A stretch of 64,000 nt of DNA from Desulforadius tongensis (GTDB lineage Bacteria > Bacillota > Desulfotomaculia > Desulfotomaculales > Desulfohalotomaculaceae), in assembly GCF_016907915.1 (NCBI RefSeq), contig NZ_JAFBCW010000006.1:1-64000 (forward strand). The letters run 5' to 3'. Below are positions 2,490 through 22,588 of this stretch, piece by piece. Below the pieces are notes generated by a model, which had not been told where the DNA came from, ran no database searches, and saw only the letters and a list, made by a program, of their open reading frames with translations. How positions within the stretch are numbered: the stretch's first letter is position 1; every line of letters begins with the position of its first letter. The position numbers and the translations under genes are program-made.

Positions 2490-3299
2490 TTAAACAAGCA
2501 TTCCCACCGCATCGGCTCTGCACTGGCGACAGTGTTCCATTTGAGAAATAATAAAAGCAAGCTTCTGACGCGCCAGGTGTATCTCTTTCCTGGTGGGACG
2601 TTCCAGCGCTGCAAACTCCGCTTGCGGAATCAGCGGCATCACATTCATGATATATGCCCCCAGGGCTTTTACCGCCCTAGCTATGTCCGCCAGATGATTA
2701 TCGTTAACTCCGGGAATGAATACAGTATTAATCTTCACTGTCATTCCCATTTCCGCTGCCTTTTTGATTCCTGCTTTTTGGCGACGCCACAACAGCTGCG
2801 CCCCAGCGGTTCCGTAGTATACTTTATTACGGTAAGAGATGTAACCGTAAATTTTACTGCCTACCACAGGGCAAACGGCATTTACCGTCACGGTTACGGC
2901 CTTGACCCCTGTATCTTGCAGCCGCTCAAGATTATCTTCCAACATAAGACCGTTGGTGCTGATGCATTTTATCAGATGTGGATACTGTTTATGCACCAAC
3001 TCCAAAGTCTCCAAGGTTTCCGGGTTGGCCAGGGGATCCCCGGGACCGGCAATACCCACAACTCGAATACGATGATCCTTTTTCACCACCTCGGATACAC
3101 GGTCCAGCGCTTCTCCGGGTGTTAATATCCGGCTGGTTACACCGGGACGGCTTTCATTCACACAATCATAAAGCCTGGTACAATAATGACACTTTATGTT
3201 GCAGCTGGGGGCTACCGGCAGATGGATTCTGCCGAACCAGCGGGCCGCTTTCTTATCTAAACAGGGATGCTGCCTGATTACCTCCCGTAATTCTGTCAT
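2490..3299 (-). CDS. nifB: NifB, radical SAM FeMo-co core synthase
   Basis: NifB builds NifB-co, the [8Fe-9S-C] core of FeMo-cofactor, using S-adenosylmethionine chemistry. The 269-aa protein has the radical SAM cluster motif CNIKCHYC (about residues 34-41), the NifB signatures NESRPGV and GIAGPGDPLAN, and the C-terminal CRQCRADAVG. It lacks the C-terminal NifX-like domain that many NifB proteins carry; that domain is instead fused to the neighbouring NifE. It lies between nifE and nifV in the same direction with short spacings and is surely part of the nif operon. Confidence 0.95.
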   Translation of the reverse strand: MTELREVIRQHPCLDKKAARWFGRIHLPVAPSCNIKCHYCTRLYDCVNESRPGVTSRILTPGEALDRVSEVVKKDHRIRVVGIAGPGDPLANPETLETLELVHKQYPHLIKCISTNGLMLEDNLERLQDTGVKAVTVTVNAVCPVVGSKIYGYISYRNKVYYGTAGAQLLWRRQKAGIKKAAEMGMTVKINTVFIPGVNDNHLADIARAVKALGAYIMNVMPLIPQAEFAALERPTRKEIHLARQKLAFIISQMEHCRQCRADAVGMLV

Positions 3300-3320: not shown

Positions 3321-4982
3321 TCACAAAACACTGGAACACCATTTCAATGCCTCGGATAAAGGCCCTTCCTTTTCCAACACCGTCAACCCGGTATTGCCCG
3401 CCTGCTTCCGGGCGCATTCTCCGGCCCGGGTACACAGCACTGCCCGGCAATCTGCCAGTAAATCTATGCGCTGCCGGACTCCGTCCCTGCCGCCGGAATC
3501 CTGATACGAAACACTCTCTTTTCCCGCAGGCCGTCTTATTTCCAGCAAACTCACACTGTTGGGAGTTAACTCAAAAATCATAAACTGCTCAGCCCTGCCG
3601 AAGTGTTGGTCAATGGTTAGGCCATTGCCGGATGCTACGGCCACCTTCAATTTAGAAACCTCCCGTCTACTCTGTGCTAATCGCCAAACCGGCGCGCCCA
3701 TTATCCCGCTTACTTCCCGGGCCAAGTTTACAAAACCGTTAAACCCGGCAAAAGGGCTCATTTCCTGTGGAAATACCAGGAACGGTACACCTAATTTATG
3801 AGCCATGTATTTTTCCTTGGTTCCCCCCACCAGGAGGTCAGGCCGGTATTTAGTTAAGAGTTCTTCCAGTTCCCGGTCGTGGGCATCATCCATTAATAAT
3901 ACACCTTCTTTAACCTTATCCCCGGCCTCCCGGTAATCCTGGCGGCAGCCAAACTGGGAGCCAGCCATTATCACTTCCATACCCAGTTCTTGAAAAGCCT
4001 TAGCCATGGAACCCATCCGGGAAGCACCGAAGAATAGGGCCACCCGCCTGCCGGCCAGCCCGGGCAAAAAAGGTTCTATCTCCCGGCGGGCTTTCTTCAC
4101 ATCCTGGGCAATTACTTTCTCAGTCTTATCTGACCCAAAAAACTCCCCAACAGCTCGCAGTGCAGCAGTGGTTTCTTCCAGGCCAAAAAACGATACTTTT
4201 AGAAACGGTATATGAAAACGATCATGCATAGCTTCAGCCAGAGCCTGCCCTGTACGGCGACAGTGGACAATATTTAATTTGGCCCGGTGAGAGTTAGCCA
4301 TGGCAGTTGTCGAAGCGCGTCCCGAAAAAGTACAAATGATATTAATTCCCAGCTGTCCCAGTAATGCCTCAATTTCTCCTAAATCACCCTGTACATCAAA
4401 CTCCCCCAGAATGTTTACCGTATTATCCAAGGGTGGTTCTTTCTTATCTCCTTTACCGATAAAATGTTCGAGCAATACATTTACGGCAATATCGTGACCG
4501 GCTGCCTGGCTGGTGCCGCAAAAGCCGGGGCAGTTCACCGGCACCACCGGTAAGCCCAAGTCCGTAGAAGCGCGATTACAAATGGCAGACAGATCCTCAC
4601 CGGTGATCCCCACCACGCAGGTAGCGTATACTATAACGGCACGTGTACCGGAAAATTGCCGAACGGCTTCGCGAATCGAATTATATAACTTATCCCCGGC
4701 CCCAAAAACAATGTCACGTTCCGCCAGGTTCGAGGAAAATATGCGGTAGTTGGTGCGCCGGACGGTGCGCCCGTAGTAGGCACACCCCACCGGGCCATGT
4801 ACCAGGTGAACCACATCGGGAATGGCGGCCAGCATCCACCGCGCCCCGTAAAAGGCACATGCCCTTTGAGAAATCACGCCCGGCAGGGTAGACCTGCCGC
4901 ATTCCGGCTTTTCCGCTGCATCCTTTTTATTTAAAACCACATGCCCACGGCGGTTGGGTAATAATTCTAAGGAAGCTGACAT
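3321..4982 (-). CDS. nifE: NifE fused to a NifX-like cofactor-binding domain
   Basis: NifE pairs with NifN to form the scaffold on which FeMo-cofactor matures. Residues to about 435 are NifD/NifE-like, with RACAFYGAR, HGPVGCAYYG and ATCVVGITGEDL holding the cluster cysteines, plus NCPGFCGTSQ. Residues from about 440 to 553 form a dinitrogenase cofactor (NifX/NafY-like) domain, VAVASGNGLTIDQHFGRAEQ. The position equivalent to the NifD TGA is an ordinary TGT Cys codon here. Start at 4982 follows GAGGGTG with good spacing. It lies after nifN, the reverse of the common nifE-nifN order. Confidence 0.92.
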   Translation of the reverse strand: MSASLELLPNRRGHVVLNKKDAAEKPECGRSTLPGVISQRACAFYGARWMLAAIPDVVHLVHGPVGCAYYGRTVRRTNYRIFSSNLAERDIVFGAGDKLYNSIREAVRQFSGTRAVIVYATCVVGITGEDLSAICNRASTDLGLPVVPVNCPGFCGTSQAAGHDIAVNVLLEHFIGKGDKKEPPLDNTVNILGEFDVQGDLGEIEALLGQLGINIICTFSGRASTTAMANSHRAKLNIVHCRRTGQALAEAMHDRFHIPFLKVSFFGLEETTAALRAVGEFFGSDKTEKVIAQDVKKARREIEPFLPGLAGRRVALFFGASRMGSMAKAFQELGMEVIMAGSQFGCRQDYREAGDKVKEGVLLMDDAHDRELEELLTKYRPDLLVGGTKEKYMAHKLGVPFLVFPQEMSPFAGFNGFVNLAREVSGIMGAPVWRLAQSRREVSKLKVAVASGNGLTIDQHFGRAEQFMIFELTPNSVSLLEIRRPAGKESVSYQDSGGRDGVRQRIDLLADCRAVLCTRAGECARKQAGNTGLTVLEKEGPLSEALKWCSSVL

Positions 4983-5001: not shown

Positions 5002-6345
5002 TCAACTAAACTCAAGCAAACTGTTAACGATAAGGTCTAATAAGCTGAGGCTCCCGCGGTAACCTACTATAGCGCGCCGGTGATACCCTACCCTATCATA
5101 AACGGGAAAACCCAGCCGAACCACGGGAACCTTTACCTTGCGAGCAATTTCCACACCGTGGGACGGTGATAAAATGATATCCGCACGTCTTTCTTTAAGG
5201 GCTGACTCAAAGTCATAAAGGTCTCCACCCGAAATAACGACGGGATTATAGTCATATTCCCGCGCAATAACTTCCACTTCCCTTACAAATTCGTCGCTGG
5301 CGGTGCTGCTCATCACCACCGCCGGCTCCATTCCCAACTCGCAGATGAATCGGGTTGTACCGGCCACAATGTCCGGGTCTCCCACTAGGGCCGCGCGCTT
5401 CATCATAGTGTACTGGCAGGAATCAGCCATGGCGTCCAGCAGGATTCCTCGCTCCCACTCCAGCGAGGATGGTATTTCCTTACCGATCAGTTTTTTTACG
5501 CTGTCCAGGAACCGGTCCGTGTTGGCTATTCCCACCGGTAGAGGTCCCAACAGCGCGGGAATATTGAATTTCTTTTGCAGGTAGCGGGCCCCCGCACCCC
5601 CGGCGTGCCGGCAGAGGGCAATGGTTCCCAGGGAATTAGCGGCATCCGCCAGCTCTTTAACAGAAGTCCCCTCTTTTGGCAAACGGCTCATTGATATTTC
5701 CAGGGGAGTATCAAGTGTCCGCGAAATATCATATAGCACAAGGAAGGGAACATCCATTTCCACTAAAATATGTTTTATCTCTTCAATATCTCCCGGGTTA
5801 ATTATTCCGGGTATGACATTTAACTTACCATTGGAATCCTTGCCCGGCTGCACCAGGTATTCCAAAACAGCACGGGATGCATTATCGTATCCCTTAATAT
5901 GACTGCCTGCATAGCTGGGGGTATGAATGGGTACGATTTTTACCTGCTTCGAGCTAACATTTATTTTCCCGTTTAACTCTTTTTGCACTTCCCTTATTAT
6001 GGAATCAATATTATCACCGATGGTTTCACTGAGACAGGTACTGACCACACCAATAAACCGCGGGCTATAGCAAAGCAAAAGATTCTTGATACCCTCGACC
6101 AGATTCCGCCTGCCTCCGAAAACAGCCGCATCCTCGTGAAAGGATGTGGCGGCCACTTTAACCGGCTCTCTAAAATGCCGGTTAAGCAGGTAGCGTACAT
6201 AACTGCAGCAGCCCTGTGAGCCGTGCACCAGGGGCACAGCCCCCCGGATGCCCAGGAGAAGGTAGGCAGCACCCAGGGGCTGGCAAGTATGACAGGGATC
6301 TATAGTTACCACCCGCGCACCGGTTGCGGCAGCCAATTTATTCAC
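5002..6345 (-). CDS. nifN: NifN, FeMo-cofactor scaffold beta-like subunit
   Basis: A 447-aa NifK/NifN-family protein, the expected partner of NifE in the cofactor assembly scaffold. Motifs include DPCHTCQPLGA, HGSQGCCSYVRY, VSTCLSETIGDN, TPSYAGSHIKGYD and the C-terminal VGYRGSL. It is shorter and more diverged than the adjacent NifK, which supports NifN rather than a second NifK. The start is uncertain: GTG at 6345 abuts GGAGGT directly, while a TTG at 6336 has better spacing to it. It sits 20 bp after nifK. Confidence 0.85.
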   Translation of the reverse strand: MNKLAAATGARVVTIDPCHTCQPLGAAYLLLGIRGAVPLVHGSQGCCSYVRYLLNRHFREPVKVAATSFHEDAAVFGGRRNLVEGIKNLLLCYSPRFIGVVSTCLSETIGDNIDSIIREVQKELNGKINVSSKQVKIVPIHTPSYAGSHIKGYDNASRAVLEYLVQPGKDSNGKLNVIPGIINPGDIEEIKHILVEMDVPFLVLYDISRTLDTPLEISMSRLPKEGTSVKELADAANSLGTIALCRHAGGAGARYLQKKFNIPALLGPLPVGIANTDRFLDSVKKLIGKEIPSSLEWERGILLDAMADSCQYTMMKRAALVGDPDIVAGTTRFICELGMEPAVVMSSTASDEFVREVEVIAREYDYNPVVISGGDLYDFESALKERRADIILSPSHGVEIARKVKVPVVRLGFPVYDRVGYHRRAIVGYRGSLSLLDLIVNSLLEFS

Positions 6346-6367: not shown

Positions 6368-7834
6368 TTAAAGCTGCTGCGTGCGGTCGTCGGGATAACT
6401 GTAATCCAGAAGGGCGTTTACTATTTCCGCCAGCAAGAACTCGCCCCCGCGGTAACCCACCACCGGCCTCTTCTGGTAACCTACCCTGTCCCACACCATC
6501 AGCCCGACTCTAACCAGCGGCACTTCCAATTCGTTGGCAATGTCCACTCCCTTGGAATTTCCGATAATCATGTTAACCCTTATCTTTTTTAGGTGCTCTT
6601 CAAACTCAAAGAGATCCCCACCGTTGAAAATCTCGGGATTACATTGGTACTCCCGGGCAATATCCTCGATTTCTTTAGTAAAGATTTTACTGGGCGTGCC
6701 GCTCAGAACCGCCACTGGTTCCATTCCCAGTTCACAGACAAACCGGGTCACTCCCACCACAATATCCGGATCGCCGAAAACAGCCACTTTTTTCATCATG
6801 GTATGGTGGAAAGTATCGGCCATAAAATCTAACAGCAGACCCCGTTCATCTAAAAGTTGTTCAGGAACCGGTATTCCAGTTAGTTCACTAATATTTTTAA
6901 GAAAGATATCAGTATTATGCACACCTAACGGCAGGGGGCCCAAAATTGCTTTAACGCCAAATTTTCTTTCCAAGTACTGCGCCCCGAGCCCCCCTTCATG
7001 GGGGCACAGGACCACTGTCCCCAGTGAATTAGCCATGTCCTTTATCTCATCCGCCGGCGTTCCTCCCTTGGGATAACACGGTATAGACTGGGGAGGGCGC
7101 AGAGGGGCGTCAAAAACACCGGCAATATCAAACATCATTATGCTTTCCGTGCCCATTGCTTCCAACAGGTGCTTAATCTCCCGGATATCCCCGGGATTGA
7201 GCATCCCCGGTATGATATTTACCTTGTTGTTGGGAGCAGTTTTTTCCGCGGCCAGAGTCTCGATAAAGGCTCTGGCCGCCCTGTCATACCCGGCTACATG
7301 AGAACCAGCAAAACTGGGAGTGTTAATGAGAACAATTTTTGTCTGCGACGATATTTCCTCCCCCAGCTCTTCAACCAACCGTTTCCTGGCCATTTTGATA
7401 AAACTCACCATATCGTCACCGATAATTTCACTGGAGCAGGTGGTAACCACGCCTATGACGTCCGGCCGGTAGCGCACCACCAGGTTGCGAATACCTTCAA
7501 TAAAATTTTTCCGCCCGCCGAAAACTGCGGCATCTTCATGAAAAGAAGCGTTGGCAATCATATTCGGTTCCTTAAAAATGCGGCAGAATGTGTAACGAAC
7601 GTACGTCGTGCAGCCTTGGGCCCCCTGGACAAAAGGAATACCCCTGTGCACGCCCATGGTGGCGAACATGGCCCCCAGCGGCATACAAGTCCGGCAAGGA
7701 TTGATTACCACCGCCCGGTTGGCTACCCGCACCAGAGTAGGATCCCTTTCTATATATTCTTCGGTCATGGGAATTCTATCTATCTTAAGCTGGTCGTAAG
7801 TAATACCCTCTATTGGTATTTCCTGAACTCGCAT
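6368..7834 (-). CDS. nifK: Nitrogenase MoFe protein beta subunit NifK
   Basis: The beta subunit of dinitrogenase shares the P-cluster with NifD. Cluster cysteines are visible in NPCRTCMPLGA, GAQGCTTYVRY and VVTTCSSEIIGDD, all with ordinary Cys codons; the nearby TPSFAGSHVAGYD is also typical. The 488-aa length is normal. The ATG at 7834 is preferred over one seven codons upstream because AGGAGGAGGGAG lies just before it. It follows nifD by 24 bp. The intact partner subunit argues that the nif operon is under selection. Confidence 0.95.
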   Translation of the reverse strand: MRVQEIPIEGITYDQLKIDRIPMTEEYIERDPTLVRVANRAVVINPCRTCMPLGAMFATMGVHRGIPFVQGAQGCTTYVRYTFCRIFKEPNMIANASFHEDAAVFGGRKNFIEGIRNLVVRYRPDVIGVVTTCSSEIIGDDMVSFIKMARKRLVEELGEEISSQTKIVLINTPSFAGSHVAGYDRAARAFIETLAAEKTAPNNKVNIIPGMLNPGDIREIKHLLEAMGTESIMMFDIAGVFDAPLRPPQSIPCYPKGGTPADEIKDMANSLGTVVLCPHEGGLGAQYLERKFGVKAILGPLPLGVHNTDIFLKNISELTGIPVPEQLLDERGLLLDFMADTFHHTMMKKVAVFGDPDIVVGVTRFVCELGMEPVAVLSGTPSKIFTKEIEDIAREYQCNPEIFNGGDLFEFEEHLKKIRVNMIIGNSKGVDIANELEVPLVRVGLMVWDRVGYQKRPVVGYRGGEFLLAEIVNALLDYSYPDDRTQQL

Positions 7835-7858
7835 ACTCGCTCCCTCCTCCTGCAAGCA

Positions 7859-9268
7859 TTAAAGAAACTTCCATACCGGTGCGTATATTGCCTGATAAAT
7901 GTCCCGGGCAAAGTTAACAAAGCCAGCATAGCCGGCATACGGCCCTTTTTCATAGGAGTGAGAATTAAGCGTAGGAATGCCCATTTTGCGGCCGATAAAC
8001 TTTTCCTTGAGGCCGGTCAGAAAAAGATCCGGCTTATACTCATGGAGCATTTCCTCTATTTCAAACTCGTTGGGATTGTCAATAATTAGTACACCGTCTT
8101 TGGCCCGGGCATTAATCTTTTCGTAATCATCTTCATGGGCAAAGGTACAGGCGCCTGCCACAACCTCCATACCAAGTTCTTCCATAACCTTAATCCAGTG
8201 CCACACCCGGGGTGCACCTACATAAATTGCTACCTTCTTCCCCTTCAACCGTTCCCGGTAAAAGGAAAGGGCCTTTTCTACCCTGGCAGTCTCCTCGGCA
8301 ATAACCTTTTCGGCCTGCTCTTCCAGCCCGAAAAATTTAGCCGTTCTGCGCAGGGCATTGGATGTCTGCTGAATACCGAACAGGGAGCAGCCAACATAAG
8401 GTACCTCGAACCCCTCCTGAATTAACTCCGCAATGTAGGTGGCCGATCGCTGGCAGTGAACGACATTTAACTCGGCATCGGGCATCTTAATCAGATCTTC
8501 TATCCTGGAATTACCGGTAAAAGTGACAATTACCCGTACCCCCATTTTTTCAAACAAGGGTAAAATCACTTTTGTATCCCAGTCAATGTTGTACTCGCCC
8601 ACTAAAGCGATGTCATAAGGAGTTTTCTCCTCTTCCTTCATGCACAAGTCCGGCCGCTTTTCCCTTAACTTTCTAATCTGCCGGAAAAACTGGTGATTGG
8701 CAACGTGGTGACCCTTGGATTGGCTTACCCCCGAACATCCCGGCGCTTCAGCATAGAGAATAAATTTTCCCGTTTCTTCCTCCAGCTGCCGCGCCACGGC
8801 AGATACGTCGTCCCCTATTAGGCCGGTGGTACAGGTGGTATAAATAACCATTCCCCTGGCTTCAGGAAACATGCGGAAGGCCTCCAGGCAAGCCTTCTTT
8901 AATTTTTTCATTCCCCCGAAAACAACATCTTTTTCTTCCATATCGGTAACAGTACAGTAACGGCGGTTGAACGCCACGTTGGTCAATTTACCCGGGAGAG
9001 CCCAGGTATAAAGATCAGACAGGTGGCGCCGCGTACCCCAGGTATACCAGGCGCACCCCACCGGGGCATGCACCATGTGTATAACATCGGTAATAGGTCC
9101 GCCCACGACCCCGCGTGAGCCGGCAAAAGCTCACCCGCGCTCGGTCATATCACCCGGAACGGTTTTTGTATTACAAAGCGGGATTACCGGATTTTTTTGG
9201 TCGGTAATGTAAGTGTGTTTTCCCCTTTCGGGAATTAATTCATCACATTTTAAAGTTACCAGCGGCAT
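7859..9268 (-). CDS. nifD: Nitrogenase MoFe protein alpha subunit NifD with in-frame TGA at P-cluster Cys
   Basis: The alpha subunit of dinitrogenase binds FeMo-cofactor and half of the P-cluster. From ATG 9268 (AGGAGG nine bases upstream) the frame runs 469 codons with one internal TGA at 9131-9133, codon 46. The context is MTERG-TGA-AFAGSRGVVGG, where relatives have RGCA(Y/F)AG; this is A. vinelandii alpha-Cys62, a P-cluster ligand. The other two ligands are Cys72 (APVGCAWY, 26 residues later as in A. vinelandii) and Cys146 (TTCTTGLIGDD). FeMo-co ligands are present: Cys272 (VVHCQRS) and a His near 437 (NSHSYEKGPY), with GVSQSKGHH between. There is no frameshift or other stop. If TGA is read as selenocysteine the protein is full length; otherwise it is a nonsense allele. 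Sequence style is of the NifI-associated (group III-like) NifD. Recalled from memory, not searched: no selenocysteine NifD is known to me. Confidence 0.9.
9101..9133 (-). promoter_or_regulatory. Candidate bacterial SECIS element in nifD
   Basis: After the TGA (9133-9131) come 10 nt, then GCTCACG (9120-9114), a 6-nt loop CGGGGT (9113-9108), and CGTGGGC (9107-9101). The arms form seven base pairs including one T-G wobble. The apical loop starts 17 nt after the TGA and has G at its second position. This fits the bacterial SECIS consensus as I recall it (loop about 16-37 nt downstream, a G among the first two loop bases). A competing hairpin (TGAGC with GCTCA) includes the TGA itself. The stretch also encodes conserved residues, so some pairing could be chance. 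Confidence 0.5.
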
Positions 9269-9281
9269 CTATATACCCTCC

Positions 9282-9647
9282 TCAGCAAATTGCTTCCCTG
9301 CCTCTTTCCTGCGTCCGCACCCGGACAGCTTCTTCCACCGGGCAAACAAAGATCCTCCCGTCACCGACCTCGCCGGTGCGGTTGACTCTGGTGATTACTT
9401 CTACCACCAGAGATACATCTTCGTTGTTGACAACCAGGGAGATAAGTCTTTTAGGAATATATCTCATACTGCTTTCCTGGCTTAATACTTCTGAACTGAT
9501 CTTGAAAGAAACTTCCTGCTTCAGGCCTTTCTGTTTACCCCGCCCCATGACCTTACAGGCAGTCATTGCCGGAAAACCGAGGGTACTCAATACTTCTTTG
9601 GTCCTGGTCATTTTATTAGTGCGGATAACGGCCACTATTTCCTTCAC
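9282..9647 (-). CDS. nifI2: NifI2, PII-like nitrogenase regulator
   Basis: A PII (GlnB) family protein of the NifI2 type. NifI1 and NifI2 together inhibit dinitrogenase in response to ammonium and 2-oxoglutarate in methanogens and some Firmicutes. The 121-aa protein has the GRGKQKG T-loop start, a longer variable insert than NifI1, and the C-terminal GEVGDGRIFVCPV. GTG at 9647 is chosen because GGAGGT precedes it and the family begins there (KEIVAVIRTNK); an ATG at 9671 overlaps the nifI1 stop. The position between nifH and nifD is diagnostic. Confidence 0.92.
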   Translation of the reverse strand: MKEIVAVIRTNKMTRTKEVLSTLGFPAMTACKVMGRGKQKGLKQEVSFKISSEVLSQESSMRYIPKRLISLVVNNEDVSLVVEVITRVNRTGEVGDGRIFVCPVEEAVRVRTQERGREAIC

Positions 9648-9667
9648 TGCTGCAGCACCTCCCCATT

Positions 9668-9985
9668 TCATAAGCCTTTGGCGCCCGTCCTTACGGTATA
9701 GGCTTCTTGCACCGGGCTGATGAACAGTTTTCCGTCACCAAAATTCCCCGTATATGCGGAACGATTAATAATATCAATAATTTGCTCTACATTTTCATCT
9801 TCAGCCACCAGCATAATCATTACTTTAGGCAGTTCATCATAATAAACGCTGCCCACATGAATGCCCTTTTGCTTACCGCGGCCCACTACGTCCATTTTGG
9901 TTAATGCTACGTACCCGGCATCAGCCAGGGCATCAACTACCTCCTCGGTTTTTTCGGGCCTTAAAACAGCTCGAATCATTTTCAT
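9668..9985 (-). CDS. nifI1: NifI1, PII-like nitrogenase regulator
   Basis: A 105-aa PII-family protein with IRAVLRPEKTEEV at the N-terminus, VVGRGKQKGIHVG at the T-loop and YTGNFGDGKLFISPV at the C-terminus. It is expected to act with NifI2 on NifDK for post-translational ammonium switch-off. ATG 9985 follows AGGGGG with eight-base spacing; longer starts add residues unlike the family. It lies 13 bp after nifH and is followed closely by nifI2. Confidence 0.93.
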   Translation of the reverse strand: MKMIRAVLRPEKTEEVVDALADAGYVALTKMDVVGRGKQKGIHVGSVYYDELPKVMIMLVAEDENVEQIIDIINRSAYTGNFGDGKLFISPVQEAYTVRTGAKGL

Positions 9986-9998
9986 AATCTTAACCCCC

Positions 9999-10841
<843 letters not shown>

Positions 10842-12514: not shown

Positions 12515-13402
12515 CTAAAAACTATCGATGCTTCTAACGTAACCGCTCTTTAATAGGTAATTGACCAGATCATGTAATATCTTGACGTTTCCACCTTCAA
12601 TTTTTACCCCAAGTTCCAGTCGGTTCCCCAAACCGTATTCGGTTAAATTAGCACTTCCTAAATATGCAACCTTACCCTTATCCGCTATAATCATCTTGGC
12701 ATGAAAATCGAAAAAATTCCCTTCCGATTCATTCTTGGATTGGTACAGATAAAGCTTTATACGGGAACGTAGGTCCTTCTTTTTCACTTCAATAAGAAAC
12801 GGTTCGAGGGCTTCCATATTATCCCTTCTTTCCCCCGTTAGGTATCTGGTTATTATCCTTACCTTAACACCCCTCTGCATGCTATATATTAAAGCATTTT
12901 TCAGTTCTTGAACTGCATAACGGTCGAAAAAGGGATTAAGAATTATCAGCTCTTCTTCAGCATTCGATATAATACAGTGAAGTTCGGAAAAAATCGGAAG
13001 TACTTCGGCTACCCTTATTCTTCTGATACACCTGTAATCATCCGGTATATTTCCCATCAGCACGTATCTATTATCGGGTATTAGTCTGTCTTCCAGTTCC
13101 CCGAGATTATTAATTATCACCTCCGCCTCCGACACATTCCTTAGAAGCTCGAGCTTATTTTTTAACCGGTAAGCAATTTGATCCGAACTGACATGATCCT
13201 TAACAATATCAATTATTCCCTTCCTTTTTAGCTCCAGTACGAAGGTGTAAATTAGGGGGTCGTCTCCCTCATTGAAGTATCGAAGTATTTCCCCGACCGT
13301 AAAGCAATTCTTTTTCTCACCGCCTAAGTACAGAATGATACCGCTCAATCTTTGGAGAAGTTTCGGTCTGCTTCTAAATGCCATTGCCAAATTAACGCTC
13401 AT
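12515..13402 (-). CDS. drmC: DrmC, phospholipase D-like DISARM protein
   Basis: A 295-aa protein with one HKD motif of the phospholipase D/nuclease superfamily, FHAKMIIADKGKVAYLGSANLTEYG, located in the last third. The N-terminal part looks like a winged-helix segment (FTVGEILRYFN, LIYTFVLELKRKGI). DrmC is a DISARM component that was found not essential for protection in the described Bacillus system. Its start overlaps the drmB stop by four bases, implying translational coupling. Confidence 0.85.
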   Translation of the reverse strand: MSVNLAMAFRSRPKLLQRLSGIILYLGGEKKNCFTVGEILRYFNEGDDPLIYTFVLELKRKGIIDIVKDHVSSDQIAYRLKNKLELLRNVSEAEVIINNLGELEDRLIPDNRYVLMGNIPDDYRCIRRIRVAEVLPIFSELHCIISNAEEELIILNPFFDRYAVQELKNALIYSMQRGVKVRIITRYLTGERRDNMEALEPFLIEVKKKDLRSRIKLYLYQSKNESEGNFFDFHAKMIIADKGKVAYLGSANLTEYGLGNRLELGVKIEGGNVKILHDLVNYLLKSGYVRSIDSF

Positions 13403-15255
13403 CTACGAAACGCACCCTTCAGGTTCTCCCAGAAGCCTTTAATCTTTCTTCCATTTAATTCTCCTCCATATAGAAACACCCGGCCCAGCTGTCTGTTAAA
13501 ATATGAACAGGTGATTTCAGGTAGATGCATACAACCGTGACACGATCCGCCTTTAGAAATGCATACGGGATCGTAAACGCAAAGTCTGAGTTCCGGGTCA
13601 AGGCATTTCTCCATCAATTCCGCAAGACTTTGTTCAAATAGAGTATGAAAGCCACCTATGGTAAATACCGTCTTGTTACTGTAAATTACAAAGGAAAGTT
13701 CCCGTGGAAATATGTATTCCGCCATTCCCATCTTCTCGAAGCCGCTTATCAGCGAAGCCGCCCCTATAAAGCAGTGGGAGAGGGAATGCAGTAGGTTAAA
13801 AACGTAATATGTAACTTCATCTTCTTCATTTAGCATCGCATATCTATCAATATTAGCTATATTCTGTAGGTAATGCATCTTCAGCTTAGCTTTATCGGAA
13901 TTATACAGATTAACAGAAAGACCGTTGCCCTTTAACCATTCTGTAACTGCTAGGGGATCAAGTCTAAATAAAAGTGCTTCCGTTCCTCCCCTATCAACGT
14001 AAACGGGTACCCTTCCGTCCCTACGTCTAGGAAATGCTTTAATAACAGTTTCTATATTCCTTCCGTTACGGTTGTCTACCGGTTCAAATGATACCCTCGT
14101 ATACCCGAAAACAGCCGTAATAACCGGAAATTCTTCTATAAGGTGAATGTCCTCAAAACCGAACTTTTTAACCGCATCCTCTGCTGCTAAAAGTATCCCT
14201 TCACTGCCGGGTCGCTCTTTTCTTAATCTTTCCGCCCGTTGACTTATGTTTTCGTTTTTAAGCTTATTGAGAACAAAAGTATATTCGCTAAGCTCCGTAA
14301 AACCGGTATCGTCTATCCCTTCCGTATTAATTTTGCCTATATCGTTATCTTTTTCTATTTTTGATTTAATTTTTGTGAGTTCTTCCTCTAAGTATTCCTT
14401 TACCGGCTCGGGCAACTCCGGGTTTTTAAGCTCACGTTCGTAAGTTTCCATTTTATTTCTTTCTTCTTTAGTTAGGACAGATCTTGGTGATCTTAACCCC
14501 AAATATTCTGACATAATCCATTTCTTTTTATCAATATCAGCAACAGATATTCCGTCGCCTACATCTACCAGCCTTATATAATGCGGGTAATACGTTAAGT
14601 TGGCTCTGTGAGGAGTAAGAACCATACTACAATCTTCTTTACCCTTAGAAGAACATTTCACGCACCTCTTAAATACAGGAGCAATTTCTGCATTACATTT
14701 CAGGCATACCCATCTGAAATCTCTGGCCTTCTGGCTCCTTCTTTCGTCCAGAGCTATGTGATTATAACCGTGTTTGTTACACCCGTACGGAATGCTTAAC
14801 GGCTCTATTTCACCGCATTGGTGTACGAACACGTGATAGATCTGCCTTAGTCTTCCATTATCACCGCAGTTATGATTGCATATCACCCCAGGGTTTCTGG
14901 CCTTCAACTTCTCATGTGATTCGTACTGATAAACCCTACCGCATTTTATACATCTGAATACAAGGGGAAAAATATCAAACCTTACGTTCTCTGGTTCTTC
15001 GAAAATAAACCCGTTATAATCGGAATAAAAATCTTTCTTATCCGGAAATCCTATAACCCTTCCTTTAGACCACCTGGGGTTAGAAGACGTGCCGTAAATA
15101 TATCTTCCTATTTCCTGTAGTATTCTTTTTTCATTTATGTTTCTCTCCTCAATCCCATCTATATCCGTCACAATACAAATAACGTTACCGCCATCGTAAT
15201 CAAATGTGGTACCGGGCAGGTAATTGTATAAAACCTGCTGCTTGCCTCTATTCAT
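13399..15255 (-). CDS. drmB: DrmB, DUF1998 DISARM protein
   Basis: A 618-aa protein with several zinc-binding-like cysteine groups: FRCIKCGRVYQ near residue 98, VCLKCNAEI and RCVKC near 185, and a C-terminal CVYDPVCISKGGSCHGC near 565. The last is the hallmark of DUF1998. DrmA and DrmB form a complex that engages DNA in DISARM (known for the family). The gene is flanked by drmA and drmC in the standard order, 38 bp after drmA. Confidence 0.88.
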   Translation of the reverse strand: MNRGKQQVLYNYLPGTTFDYDGGNVICIVTDIDGIEERNINEKRILQEIGRYIYGTSSNPRWSKGRVIGFPDKKDFYSDYNGFIFEEPENVRFDIFPLVFRCIKCGRVYQYESHEKLKARNPGVICNHNCGDNGRLRQIYHVFVHQCGEIEPLSIPYGCNKHGYNHIALDERRSQKARDFRWVCLKCNAEIAPVFKRCVKCSSKGKEDCSMVLTPHRANLTYYPHYIRLVDVGDGISVADIDKKKWIMSEYLGLRSPRSVLTKEERNKMETYERELKNPELPEPVKEYLEEELTKIKSKIEKDNDIGKINTEGIDDTGFTELSEYTFVLNKLKNENISQRAERLRKERPGSEGILLAAEDAVKKFGFEDIHLIEEFPVITAVFGYTRVSFEPVDNRNGRNIETVIKAFPRRRDGRVPVYVDRGGTEALLFRLDPLAVTEWLKGNGLSVNLYNSDKAKLKMHYLQNIANIDRYAMLNEEDEVTYYVFNLLHSLSHCFIGAASLISGFEKMGMAEYIFPRELSFVIYSNKTVFTIGGFHTLFEQSLAELMEKCLDPELRLCVYDPVCISKGGSCHGCMHLPEITCSYFNRQLGRVFLYGGELNGRKIKGFWENLKGAFRR

Positions 15256-15293
15256 ACCGTTTTACCACCCCTCCTAAATTAAATCACACTATT

Positions 15294-18200
15294 TTATTTC
15301 CTTAATAGTTGTTTTAAAAGGCTTCTTACCCTATAACTTTCAGTAAAATATATAGGCTCGTCCGTATCCCTAAGGCTTCTCATCGGTTTATGAATTAACG
15401 GCGGGTAACCTAAAGCTAACGGTAGACTTTCTTTTGTTCTTTCGTTTGCAAGTATGTATACAATATCCGTCAGTTTTTTATCAATTTCACTTTTAAATTC
15501 GCTTCCCGGGGGTAGATCGGTTCTGTAGGCATCGTGTAAATACTCCTTAACTTCATCCATATCGAGCGAGGAAATTACCGGATACCATGCTTTCTTTTTA
15601 AACAAACTCTTATTATGTAGTCTTGAATACCTGTTCAGTATGAGGGCACTGAATATCCCGGGCAGGGTTTTATCGATACTGAACTTTGACCATCTATTTA
15701 TAGCCGGAGGCTCTACTAATCTCTCCGTATATTCGTGATATTTAGAAAAATAATGATAGTGACTTCTATCCCTCTCTCTAGCTGGTGCAAAACAGATAAT
15801 CGATATTCCGGGACTTTTTCTTCCAACACGGCTGGAAGCCTGGATATATTCGGCCGTTTGCCTGGGCATGCCGAAAAAGACCATGAAATTGAATCTTTCG
15901 ATATCCACACCGTGGCTGATCATGCTCGTAGCGGTAACGGATCTAATTCTGTCCTCGGGCTTTTTATTTTTGTAGTCCTCCTGCATTTCCTTGAGTAATG
16001 CGGTAATGCGATATCCCTCGGTACCGCCCGTCATCATTTCATTTCTTACCGCAGTATATCCGTCTCTGGTCAGATAGAGGTTGATCTGACTGGCAATACT
16101 CTCCGCTACCTGATCCCCTCCCCTTTTCGTAAGAACGTACGTCAGGCTAACCTCATACTCATCCAGAATTTCTTCCACCTGCTTATCGTATAGCGATTCC
16201 GTTACTCCTATAGCATCCGCAAATTCGGCAGCGGAAAGCTTCCTTAACCTCTGAATTTCTCTGTGGAAGTACCACAGTATTTCAACCGTAGAGTTGATGT
16301 GCGTTTTGTTATGAGGCATTATCCCTAGAAAGTATCTTCCTATCCTCCCGGTATCCGTATCGCTGTAAAAGGACTCCTCCCATGAAGGACCCGGTACCGG
16401 AAATCTATAGGGCTCATCCCTGCAGTATAGTTGATCTACGTGATATTCGTAACGCTTTATGGTGGCCGTCGATGCTATGTTCTTCCAGGCCCTACCGCCG
16501 GATATATCCTTCTGCATTTTTACGATAAACGTCTCGTAATGAGAATCAAAAGCCCCCAGTTCTTCCTTTACAAGGTGGATCTCATCCTGAACCTGCAGGG
16601 TCGGTACCATTAGCCGTTTTACGGAATCATCAACCCTTGCCACCTTTCTTCCGCCGCAATACCGGCATTTATCTTCCCATAGGTATCCATGCTTATCGCA
16701 TTTATATCTTACGTCTCCGAACAGGTTGCCAAATTTGGTCTGATAACCGCATAGTGCTATCTTATCAACCGTAGATACTATTACCGTAGGCAGGTATCTG
16801 TATATTTCGTCGTCAACAATGTATATAGGCAGTGCCCTACCTCCCCAGCTGCAAACGGTACTGTCGGAGGTACATTCATGTACCAGTCTCCACTCATCAA
16901 AATCAAATCTGATTTTAACGCTTTCCCTGCCGCAGAAGGGACATACGTGTACCTTTCTGTATTTTTTATCCCTATCGGGATCATCATTAATTTGTTCTGC
17001 ATTCGATCTATAATAAATATTATTTTGCGTTTGGCTACTGCCTACCCAAAGACCAACGCTGAAGGGTTCACCCTTTATTGCTCTTTCCTCCCTAATCAGT
17101 TCCGCAGCACCTATAATTCCCGTAAGTCTTTCCAGCTGCTGGGCGCTAAGAAGCCTTAAAGGAAATCTGAACAGTGCCGTTAATCCGGCAGTCTTTCCTC
17201 TTAACCTGTCAAAGAAGGCATTACATATCGTTAGGCCCAGATATGCCTCCGTCTTCCCGCCGCCCGTGGGAAACCATAACACCACTGGACTTTCAATAGA
17301 ATTACTATCCTTAAAATCATCCGTCCAATGCTGGGCGGCAAGGTCGGGCAGCTGGGAAACTATAAACACCAGCTGGAACGGTCGCCACCCCTCGTATCCC
17401 CTTCCGGCAATTTCGTTCTTTTTTATAAAGGCCTCGTTCATTACCCTAAATGCTTTATTTAGCATTTCATACTTATGATTTTTCAGTACTTCTATTCCCT
17501 TTTTATACCTATCGATTTCTGCCCTGAAGTTATCCAGATCCCGTTTAAATTCCTCTTCATACCTTGCATCCTTCAAAAATTCGTTCTTATTTGCTTCCCA
17601 GTACCCGTAATAATCCTCCATATCTTTCAAAAGTTCCTCTAAAACATTTATCGGGTCATCGCTTAAACTCCGAAAGGTTAACTCCGTCAGCTTTCTACCT
17701 CCTATTTTTTTAGGAAGTTGAGTCCTGGTACCGTACCTTTTCTGTCTCACCACCGGTGCATTAACAGTTTTTAATCCTCTGCCGTGGTCATCCCCGTAAA
17801 GCGGCTCAACGGTACAGTTTAGTCCTATCGCCGGCATTATAGTATCGTATCTATAACTATCCTTTAGAGAATTAAACTCGAAAGGTATTAACTCCGCAGA
17901 AACAAACGATGTCTCGATAGAAGCATCAAATATAAAGCTATCCTCCATCTTCTCGGTACCGACGGGATCCCTATCCTCTCCAGTATTAACCAGTAAAACC
18001 TTTAAAAGGTAAACATCATTTTCAACGGGATTAAGCTCGATATGCAGTTCGAACTTCCATTTCGGCAGGTTCACATCTCCATGCGTCGCATCCCTAATTA
18101 GTTCGTTAAAAAATTCTTCGTATTTATCAGGACTCTCATCTGGATTCTTGGACAGCTTCCTTTCGGGTATTTTTTTGAATGCCTTAGAATCTCTTTTGAT

Positions 18201-18713
18201 TTCTTCATAAATGTCTTCCATAACCCGCTTAAACGGTTCGTCGGAAGAACTTATTATTTTTTTACCTTCCCTTATCAGTAATGATAAATTTACAGTTATA
18301 AAAGGAAAATTCGGTCTTAAACGCTTAAATACCACCGCCAGTTCCCTGGCTCCCTTTATCCTTTTCTGTTGTTCCAAATCGGGAACTATTCTGTAATATA
18401 GGGACATATTAGGTCTGATTTTTAGCATCGCATCCCGGTTGCTGATTTTCAACCTGCACTCGAAACCGAGTGCATAGGGAGAAAGTCTGGAATGAAACTC
18501 GGATCTCAGTTCGTTTTCCGACAGTTCTACTTCCGATACGGCAGAATTGGGTCTCAGGCTCCCGACAAAATAGGTGTCTCTGGGACGTTCGTAAAGACAG
18601 TACTCTCCATCCTCACCCTTACCCGATCCCGAAGTGCATTCGGTAATCCTTTTAATTAAATATTCACATAATTTCTCCTTTACGGCATATTCATCGGCCT
18701 TCGATAAGCTCAT
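15294..18713 (-). CDS. drmA: DrmA, DISARM helicase
   Basis: A 1139-aa superfamily 2 helicase. Walker A FPTGGGKTEAYLG lies near residue 481, a DEIH box (QVQDEIHLVKE) near 708, and motif VI-like IQASSRVGRKSPG near 959, preceded by SMISHGVDIERF. A four-cysteine zinc-like group (HVCPFCGRE, YKCDKHGY, CRYCGGRK) lies between the two helicase halves. DrmA is the DNA translocase or unwinding core of DISARM. It lies 14 bp after drmE. The composition of this region is AT-richer than the nif and cob regions, which suggests horizontal acquisition; this was judged by eye. Confidence 0.92.
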   Translation of the reverse strand: MSLSKADEYAVKEKLCEYLIKRITECTSGSGKGEDGEYCLYERPRDTYFVGSLRPNSAVSEVELSENELRSEFHSRLSPYALGFECRLKISNRDAMLKIRPNMSLYYRIVPDLEQQKRIKGARELAVVFKRLRPNFPFITVNLSLLIREGKKIISSSDEPFKRVMEDIYEEIKRDSKAFKKIPERKLSKNPDESPDKYEEFFNELIRDATHGDVNLPKWKFELHIELNPVENDVYLLKVLLVNTGEDRDPVGTEKMEDSFIFDASIETSFVSAELIPFEFNSLKDSYRYDTIMPAIGLNCTVEPLYGDDHGRGLKTVNAPVVRQKRYGTRTQLPKKIGGRKLTELTFRSLSDDPINVLEELLKDMEDYYGYWEANKNEFLKDARYEEEFKRDLDNFRAEIDRYKKGIEVLKNHKYEMLNKAFRVMNEAFIKKNEIAGRGYEGWRPFQLVFIVSQLPDLAAQHWTDDFKDSNSIESPVVLWFPTGGGKTEAYLGLTICNAFFDRLRGKTAGLTALFRFPLRLLSAQQLERLTGIIGAAELIREERAIKGEPFSVGLWVGSSQTQNNIYYRSNAEQINDDPDRDKKYRKVHVCPFCGRESVKIRFDFDEWRLVHECTSDSTVCSWGGRALPIYIVDDEIYRYLPTVIVSTVDKIALCGYQTKFGNLFGDVRYKCDKHGYLWEDKCRYCGGRKVARVDDSVKRLMVPTLQVQDEIHLVKEELGAFDSHYETFIVKMQKDISGGRAWKNIASTATIKRYEYHVDQLYCRDEPYRFPVPGPSWEESFYSDTDTGRIGRYFLGIMPHNKTHINSTVEILWYFHREIQRLRKLSAAEFADAIGVTESLYDKQVEEILDEYEVSLTYVLTKRGGDQVAESIASQINLYLTRDGYTAVRNEMMTGGTEGYRITALLKEMQEDYKNKKPEDRIRSVTATSMISHGVDIERFNFMVFFGMPRQTAEYIQASSRVGRKSPGISIICFAPARERDRSHYHYFSKYHEYTERLVEPPAINRWSKFSIDKTLPGIFSALILNRYSRLHNKSLFKKKAWYPVISSLDMDEVKEYLHDAYRTDLPPGSEFKSEIDKKLTDIVYILANERTKESLPLALGYPPLIHKPMRSLRDTDEPIYFTESYRVRSLLKQLLRK

Positions 18714-21439: not shown

Positions 21440-22588
21440 TTACACATCCTTCTCAATATCCTTCCTAATACATTCAAAAAAAGTTCTTCCCATTTTTACC
21501 GGTACCGCATTACCGATCTGTAATGCTATCTTACCGAAAGAACCGGTAAATTTGTAATCCGGCGGAAATGTTTGTATTAGAGCAGCCTCCCTTAGGCTTA
21601 TTGCCCTGTCCTCGACGGGATGACCGAATCTACCTTTCGAAATCGTACAGCATCCGCCGGTTAATGTCGGGGCAACCTTATTATAATCCATACGCCCGTA
21701 TACATCCTTATATCCAACCCCCCTTTTTTTATGACATTTTAACCATAACTCTATTTGCTCACCCTTATCATTCCGTACGGTTTGCGGCCAATCCGTTCTG
21801 CTACCACCGTTCTTGGGCGTGTATTTCATCCGAAGAAGATTTAACTCGCTTAAGTTAGCCGCTCTATGCAATTTATCTTCCTTACATGTCTCACCCGCTT
21901 TAATTTTTTTTAGGTGGCTTATCGTTTCCTTGAGGGTGACCCATTTTTTTAACCCGCAGTCTTCTGTCAATAATTCGGGATTTATATGGGTTGGTTTTGC
22001 AAAAATACTTTCAGCTTCGCTCTCATTTAACGCAATATCCCTTCTTTTACCGATCAATACGAAGCGTAATCTGTTTTGAGGAACCCCGTAATCAGCCGCA
22101 TTCACGACATCATAATGCACATAGTATAACGGCCTATCCTTCCTTCCCCATCCCGTCTCAAGCAGTTCTATAAATTTATCAAATATATATTTATGCCTCT
22201 GTATCCCGGGAACATTTTCCATAAAAATATATTTAGGTTTTAGTAACCTTACCATTCTATAATACTGAAATACCAGATAATTTCTTAAATCCTTTTTTCC
22301 TTTTTTTACATTCTGTTTAGAAAAGCCCTGACAGGGAGGACATCCCGCAAGAAGATCCAGTTCCCCAGGTGTAACTCCGCAGGCCGATATCAAATCCTCT
22401 AACGTAACTTTTCTTATATCATTAATAATAATTTTACTACTATAATTTAGTTTATAACTTTCCGCTATAACTTCGTCTAATTCTATACCGCACAAAACGT
22501 TAAAACCGGCATCCTTAAGAGCACAGGTAATACCGCCTGCTCCGCTAAAAATGTCAATGGCAGTTGGTTTTATACTCTCGCTAGACAT
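21440..22588 (-). CDS. drmMII: DrmMII, DNA cytosine-C5 methyltransferase
   Basis: A 382-aa C5-cytosine methyltransferase. Motifs run in order: I DIFSGAGG, IV GCPPCQGFS with the catalytic Cys, VI MENVPG, VIII PQNRLRFVLIG, IX in RMDYNKVAPTLTGG, X QIGNAVPV. In class 2 DISARM this enzyme marks host DNA so the restriction machinery spares it. It is the first gene of the DISARM cluster on the minus strand. The paired presence with a T/G glycosylase 10 kb away is notable. The target recognition region lies between motifs VIII and IX. Confidence 0.92.
   Translation of the reverse strand: MSSESIKPTAIDIFSGAGGITCALKDAGFNVLCGIELDEVIAESYKLNYSSKIIINDIRKVTLEDLISACGVTPGELDLLAGCPPCQGFSKQNVKKGKKDLRNYLVFQYYRMVRLLKPKYIFMENVPGIQRHKYIFDKFIELLETGWGRKDRPLYYVHYDVVNAADYGVPQNRLRFVLIGKRRDIALNESEAESIFAKPTHINPELLTEDCGLKKWVTLKETISHLKKIKAGETCKEDKLHRAANLSELNLLRMKYTPKNGGSRTDWPQTVRNDKGEQIELWLKCHKKRGVGYKDVYGRMDYNKVAPTLTGGCCTISKGRFGHPVEDRAISLREAALIQTFPPDYKFTGSFGKIALQIGNAVPVKMGRTFFECIRKDIEKDV

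Follow-up and report, generated by a model that had tools for sequence, protein, structure and literature searches.

A conserved hairpin behind an in-frame TGA of nifD is probably a bacterial SECIS element serving a P-cluster ligand position

We analysed a 64,000-nucleotide stretch of the Desulforadius tongensis genome (contig NZ_JAFBCW010000006.1, positions 1 to 64,000; hereafter the window), in which a nif cluster is encoded on the minus strand (Table 1). The nifD frame contains a single in-frame TGA, in the context MTERG-U-AFAG, and the relatives of the gene are 64-89% identical to it across nearly the full length. The residue assigned to this codon, U46, aligns to Cys46 in 9spz_A, the most closely related chain with a solved structure, and corresponds to the residue numbered alpha-62 (A. 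vinelandii numbering) in Howard 2013 (PMC3760896), described in the available text of that paper as a P-cluster ligand. A standard listing of open reading frames begins nifD at a GTG inside the hairpin considered here (9106-7859, minus), which conceals residues 1-54 and with them the presumed selenocysteine (Sec) codon. The space between nifD and nifE could hold a second NifK/NifN-like gene in genomes G000 and G006; in G035, G059, G025 and G045 it could not. The nif cluster is adjoined by DISARM-type defence genes (12515-18713, minus; DrmA 567 bits, DrmB 166 bits, DrmC-like 61 bits), and an ORF at 21440-22588 reads as a putative cytosine-methyltransferase-like gene.

Table 1 Features of the nif cluster and of the hairpin behind the nifD TGA in the window
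Feature	Position	Strand	Remarks
nifH	9999-10838	minus	TIGR01287 461 bits, above cut-off
Two PII-type genes, nifI1 and nifI2 by position	9282-10015	minus	both stop at TGA
nifD, alpha subunit of nitrogenase component 1; 469 residues, predicted Sec at codon 46	7859-9268	minus	TIGR01862 565 bits, cut-off 486
In-frame TGA, nifD codon 46, predicted to be read as Sec	9131-9133	minus	shared by 24 distinct genes
Rival stem GTGAGCT/GGCTCAC, pairing the TGA itself	9115-9134	minus	incompatible with the SECIS hairpin in free RNA
Candidate SECIS hairpin, 5' arm GCTCACG	9114-9120	minus	slipped 2 nt relative to the common form GCCCGCG
Apical loop CGGGGT	9108-9113	minus	common form GGGT
Candidate SECIS hairpin, 3' arm CGTGGGC	9101-9107	minus	invariant in 23/24 TGA genes
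Frozen 17-nt core CGCGGGGTCGTGGGCGG	9099-9115	minus	codons 52-57 minus the last base
nifK, beta subunit	6368-7855	minus	Ala at beta-92; profile search
Second NifK/NifN-like gene	5002-6345	minus	vnfK 389, nifK 375, nifN 288 bits, all below cut-offs
nifE with NifX/NifB-C-terminal-like tail	3321-4982	minus	TIGR01283 413 bits, against a cut-off of 505; NifB and NifX models match the tail at 440-540
nifB	2490-3299	minus	TIGR01290 329 bits, below cut-off
nifV	1654-2523	minus	TIGR02660 345 bits, below cut-off

Relatives were collected from overlapping genome samples. Matches at any similarity were present in 38 of 60 near genomes. Close nifD genes occurred in 20 of 113 genomes belonging to the class, 10 of these 20 having TGA, in 22 of 398 genomes sampled from the phylum (7 with TGA) and in 9 of 395 genomes (6 with TGA) from a second phylum, to which a Ca. 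Desulfofervidaceae genome belongs. One class of this second phylum, inferred to be that of Thermodesulfatator, yielded close nifD in 12 of 41 genomes, 11 of them with TGA, and a third phylum yielded a single Cys gene in 295 genomes. Named genomes were scanned with two peptide patterns, and 80 of 135 loci were kept; TGA nifD genes are found in Desulfofundulus thermosubterraneus, Carboxydothermus islandicus, Desulfovirgula sp., Desulforudis sp. SURF_60 and UBA3572. The resulting 93 loci collapsed into 69 distinct nifD genes, 24 with TGA and 45 with Cys, across which the TGA at codon 46 aligns with the conserved Cys of the relatives. This set excludes 46 more distant loci (L075-L120, all Cys), paralogues and an N-terminal piece in genome G013. 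The piece (G013:C21:74743-74907) covers nifD residues 1-55 with one TGA, the G013 genome contains no longer match, and it is possibly a broken gene. All nifD trees were built by a quick method and carry branch support only.

The initial annotation of this DNA had placed a hairpin with a 7-bp stem and the 6-nt loop CGGGGT at 9101-9120, and it lies exactly there; the 10-nt gap between TGA and stem, the 17-nt gap between TGA and loop and the G at the second loop position likewise match the sequence. The annotation had also described a 5-bp rival stem that uses the TGA; such a stem does exist, but it is 7 bp long (9134-9128 paired with 9121-9115). The proposed agreement with bacterial SECIS (bSECIS) geometry was checked using the limits in the Fig. 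2 legend of PMC13188914, the part of that source built into our scanner: a loop of 3-9 nt, an upper stem of 4-16 bp, a G at loop position 1, 2 or both, 16-37 nt from UGA to loop, and an energy <= -7.5 kcal/mol. The nifD hairpin lies within all five (loop of 6 nt, CGGGGT; stem of 7 bp; spacing of 17 nt; -8.8 kcal/mol for the isolated hairpin). In loop, stem, loop G, spacing and energy it thus resembles bSECIS elements as that legend delimits them, but in free RNA the rival stem with the TGA is favoured, and the lowest-energy structure predicted for the 81-nt RNA in its free state does not contain the hairpin.

The limits admit 24/24 TGA genes versus 13/45 Cys genes, and also 1,647 of the 31,572 codon positions (5.2%) across the 69 nifD genes. 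Within the window nifD, 36 of 448 codon positions (the TGA site included) fit the model at least equally well. Relative to shuffled sequences, the folding energy of the region is ordinary: the z-score is -1.12 for the 31-nt stretch (28 of 200 shuffles equally good) and -0.74 for the 81-nt stretch (41 of 200), with values from -0.49 to -1.59 in four of five stretches and +0.85 in the fifth. Folding energy was therefore dropped as evidence for a SECIS, as were the limits as sole evidence, being too loose. With folding near chance and 5.2% of positions within the limits, the geometric argument is correct but weak.

Conservation of the element, in contrast to its folding energy, is far beyond chance. 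The core CGCGGGGTCGTGGGCGG is present without change in 23 of the 24 TGA genes, which belong to two distant lineages, and in 0 of the 45 Cys genes. Twenty-six of these 45 encode the same RGVVGG residues, and all 26 spell them differently from the core. When 23 TGA genes (all except L124) were compared column by column, 7 of 201 invariant degenerate columns used one codon throughout, and five of the seven are the consecutive codons 52-56; the corresponding count for the Cys genes is 0 of 101. On the TGA-gene tree, codons 52-57 require 1 change, against a mean of 31.9 per six-column window, the lowest of 196 windows. L041 and L137, TGA genes drawn one from each lineage, have a protein identity of 69% and use the same codon at 44% of their identical residues; despite this overall figure, they carry eleven consecutive identical codons in the region of the core. 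Among eight independent Sec/Cys pairs on the tree, the core went with Sec in 7, against it in 0 and showed no difference in 1 (p 0.0156). The comparison of synonymous sites suggested by the initial annotation thus bears out its proposal, as codons 52-56 are frozen only in genes that have the TGA.

The common form of the hairpin, GCCCGCG-GGGT-CGTGGGC, occurs with an identical stem in 21 of the 24 TGA genes. The window gene and L145 (87% protein identity) instead carry GCTCACG-CGGGGT-CGTGGGC, in which the 5' arm is slipped by two bases while the 3' arm is the same and all 7 of its bases are paired; this is the only structural variation, L124 being the remaining gene. When codon 51 encodes Ser, 7 pairs within the limits are kept by only 2 of the 24 possible Gly-Ser codon pairs, and both genes use one of these two. 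That codon choice preserves the slipped hairpin (1 in 12) is suggestive, no more. The two genes share 47% of codons at the same residues, and their longest identical run is the seven codons 50-56.

In free RNA of the window, the predicted probability of the SECIS hairpin is 0.0 and the rival 7-bp stem is favoured; removal of the first 9 nt after the TGA, mimicking a ribosome stopped at this codon, raises it to 0.93. L145 behaves differently despite sharing the codons GGC TCA (0.68 free, 0.44 with the TGA side masked). The free hairpin is also improbable in two genes of the common form, L045 (0.18) and L137 (0.05), and L166 falls from 0.85 free to 0.19 masked. Of the TGA genes other than L145, 20 have a free probability of at least 0.73. 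Release of a rival stem by the ribosome is not a general rule across TGA genes. In the lineage of the window, a two-state RNA might nevertheless operate, free mRNA hiding the TGA and only a ribosome stopped there making the second arm available to SelB. Translation and selenium supply would then gate the synthesis of the Sec-nitrogenase; we consider this quite unlikely.

Genes for Sec insertion are present in the genome. It carries a tRNA-Sec with anticodon TCA, a selA gene (631 bits) that adjoins selB (388 bits), and selD (G000:C25:1183-2106; L128). The latter has an in-frame TGA of its own, in ASG-U-AAKIG, and SelD of this genome is accordingly predicted to be a selenoprotein. Since selA scores above the cut-off in 24/24 genomes with TGA nifD versus 28/31 others, its presence alone does not separate the Sec from the Cys group. 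In the window, TGA also ends four of the nine nif-cluster genes examined (nifI1, nifI2, the second NifK-like gene and nifE), indicating that it is still used as a stop codon.

The nifD tree requires 9 Sec/Cys state changes, and the tree of a 58-row clade 8; grouping the 23 Sec genes into a single clade is rejected (p 1.4e-46; quick trees, L124 left out). Six Cys genes are one change away from the core: a GTG to GTA change breaks a stem pair in L054, L150 and L163, the change lies in the loop in L052, and it affects the closing pair in L023 and L155. The initial annotation had named Cys relatives with the same hairpin as evidence against a SECIS. Such relatives exist insofar as L052, L023 and L155 retain a stem of 7-8 bp, but the core is altered by one change in each. 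These near-core genes fit remnants of recent Sec-to-Cys switches rather than a hairpin that exists without Sec. A change from Sec to Cys can leave a remnant SECIS in Cys homologues, as reported in PMC1794560; the main families named in the accessible part of that paper are FdhA and SelD, not NifD, and the six Cys nifD genes appear alike. In L142, a Cys gene inside a TGA clade, the element has decayed. The repeated swapping of Sec and Cys suggests that both residues function at the alpha-62 position.

L124 (genome G086) has a TGA at the same codon, lacks the SECIS core and lies inside a Cys clade; it also carries G53D and W74R, and its genome has selA. L124 may have gained Sec separately, with a different element; otherwise the gene is decaying or was misread.

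Sec-containing NifD is a kind of protein known since 2013. Howard 2013 reported Sec at alpha-62 together with a bSECIS in Ca. Desulforudis audaxviator, Thermodesulfatator indicus and Desulfotomaculum kuznetsovii, raised a role in the control of NifD synthesis, and pointed out that Sec is mostly found in active sites and that a P-cluster selenolate is unusual (PMC3760896, from the portion accessible). The window shares with these genes Sec at the P-cluster ligand residue, number 46 from the N-terminus as in Group III of that paper, a bSECIS behind it, selA, selB and selD, and Ala at beta-92. It may differ in the second NifK/NifN-like gene of its cluster, which scores below every cut-off, the species in the available text all being without nifN. 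Its 5' arm is slipped relative to the hairpin form common in the present gene set. The available text also prints 'amber stop codon, TAG' for the Sec codon, whereas the sequences here have TGA. In a 2026 list of prokaryotic selenoproteins (PMC13188914), WP_153802866.1 appears as nitrogenase component I subunit alpha (TIGR01862, RxU); the window NifD has the same family model and the same R-G-U motif. In the accessible part of the list this entry derives from GenBank annotation with no analysis. We found no experimental study of a Sec nitrogenase in the openly licensed literature, judged by title and abstract. The window thus contributes a further, somewhat unusual member.

Howard 2013 also reported, in the part accessible, covariation of Sec62 with beta-Ala92 (PMC3760896). 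The window NifK has this Ala, in VQGAQGC. Within the 58-row clade it is found in 24/24 Sec rows and in 33/34 Cys rows (one Cys row without a NifK read), and in the 11 rows outside the clade beta-92 is Ser (10) or Gly (1). Ala at beta-92 therefore marks the whole clade, that is, descent, and its role as a partner of Sec62 is not upheld. By Fisher test, the NifD residues most tied to Sec are 468, 398 and 55 (Val55 in 24/24 Sec and 16/34 Cys rows); the independent pairs supported none of residues 468, 398, 55, 133 and 312 as Sec partners.

We conclude that the hairpin is very probably a bSECIS, to which SelB would bind so that Sec is inserted at codon 46 as a P-cluster ligand and the full 469-residue NifD is made. 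Seen directly in the sequences are the conserved TGA, the RNA element frozen together with it, and the genes assigned to SelA, SelB, SelD and tRNA-Sec. The SECIS reading put forward by the initial annotation gains support from the Sec machinery genes, from the tie between frozen core and TGA and from agreement with the model limits; the existence of L124, a TGA gene without the core, is a point against it. In the proposed mechanism, when the ribosome reaches the TGA, the mRNA ahead of it would fold into the stem with its GGGGU loop. SelB carrying Sec-tRNA-Sec would then bind the hairpin, and Sec would take the position held in other NifD proteins by the P-cluster ligand Cys62. Translation would continue to the end of the frame, giving a NifD of 469 residues that supplies a selenolate to the P-cluster, whose chemistry might change as a result.

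The TGA could alternatively be a real stop, due to a pseudogene or a sequencing error, with a 415-residue protein made from the GTG at 9106. The ORF finder does report exactly this ORF, but codon 46 is TGA in 24 distinct genes, which come from many genomes and are otherwise uninterrupted in frame. Moreover, the codons behind the TGA are more, not less, constrained, and the short product would miss the first P-cluster ligand; a genuine stop is therefore highly improbable. We find it scarcely believable, too, that an altered code or a suppressor tRNA reads the TGA as Trp, Cys or Gly and that the hairpin merely reflects protein sequence and codon bias. It is true that a GARGVVGG motif in a GC-rich gene folds readily and that the model admits 13 of 45 Cys genes. 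However, the use of TGA as a stop within the cluster and the presence of tRNA-Sec speak against recoding, and the alternative spelling of RGVVGG in every Cys gene that encodes it speaks against an origin in codon bias.

It is also unlikely that the hairpin mainly regulates NifD translation, as a selenium- or ribosome-dependent brake, the Sec in the P-cluster being incidental. The position of the TGA early in the mRNA (codon 46) and the 7-bp stem that covers it in free RNA of the window would suit such a brake, and repeated exchange of Sec and Cys is compatible with a mild role of the residue. Against it, the folding values of L145 and of the 20 TGA genes with a probable free hairpin indicate that there is no uniform RNA switch, and Sec occupies an essential ligand position rather than a neutral site, as far as the available text of PMC3760896 describes it.

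Compared with the genes known before, the bSECIS reading now extends to many more members, and the present set adds a slipped 5' arm, seen in the window and in a single relative, at least 7 independent Sec/Cys contrasts, and the recognition of beta-Ala92 as a clade marker. A selenolate on the P-cluster is unusual, and the eight independent Sec/Cys pairs make the question testable. They include named strains, with Sec in Desulfofundulus thermosubterraneus and Carboxydothermus islandicus and Cys with a remnant in Moorella stamsii.
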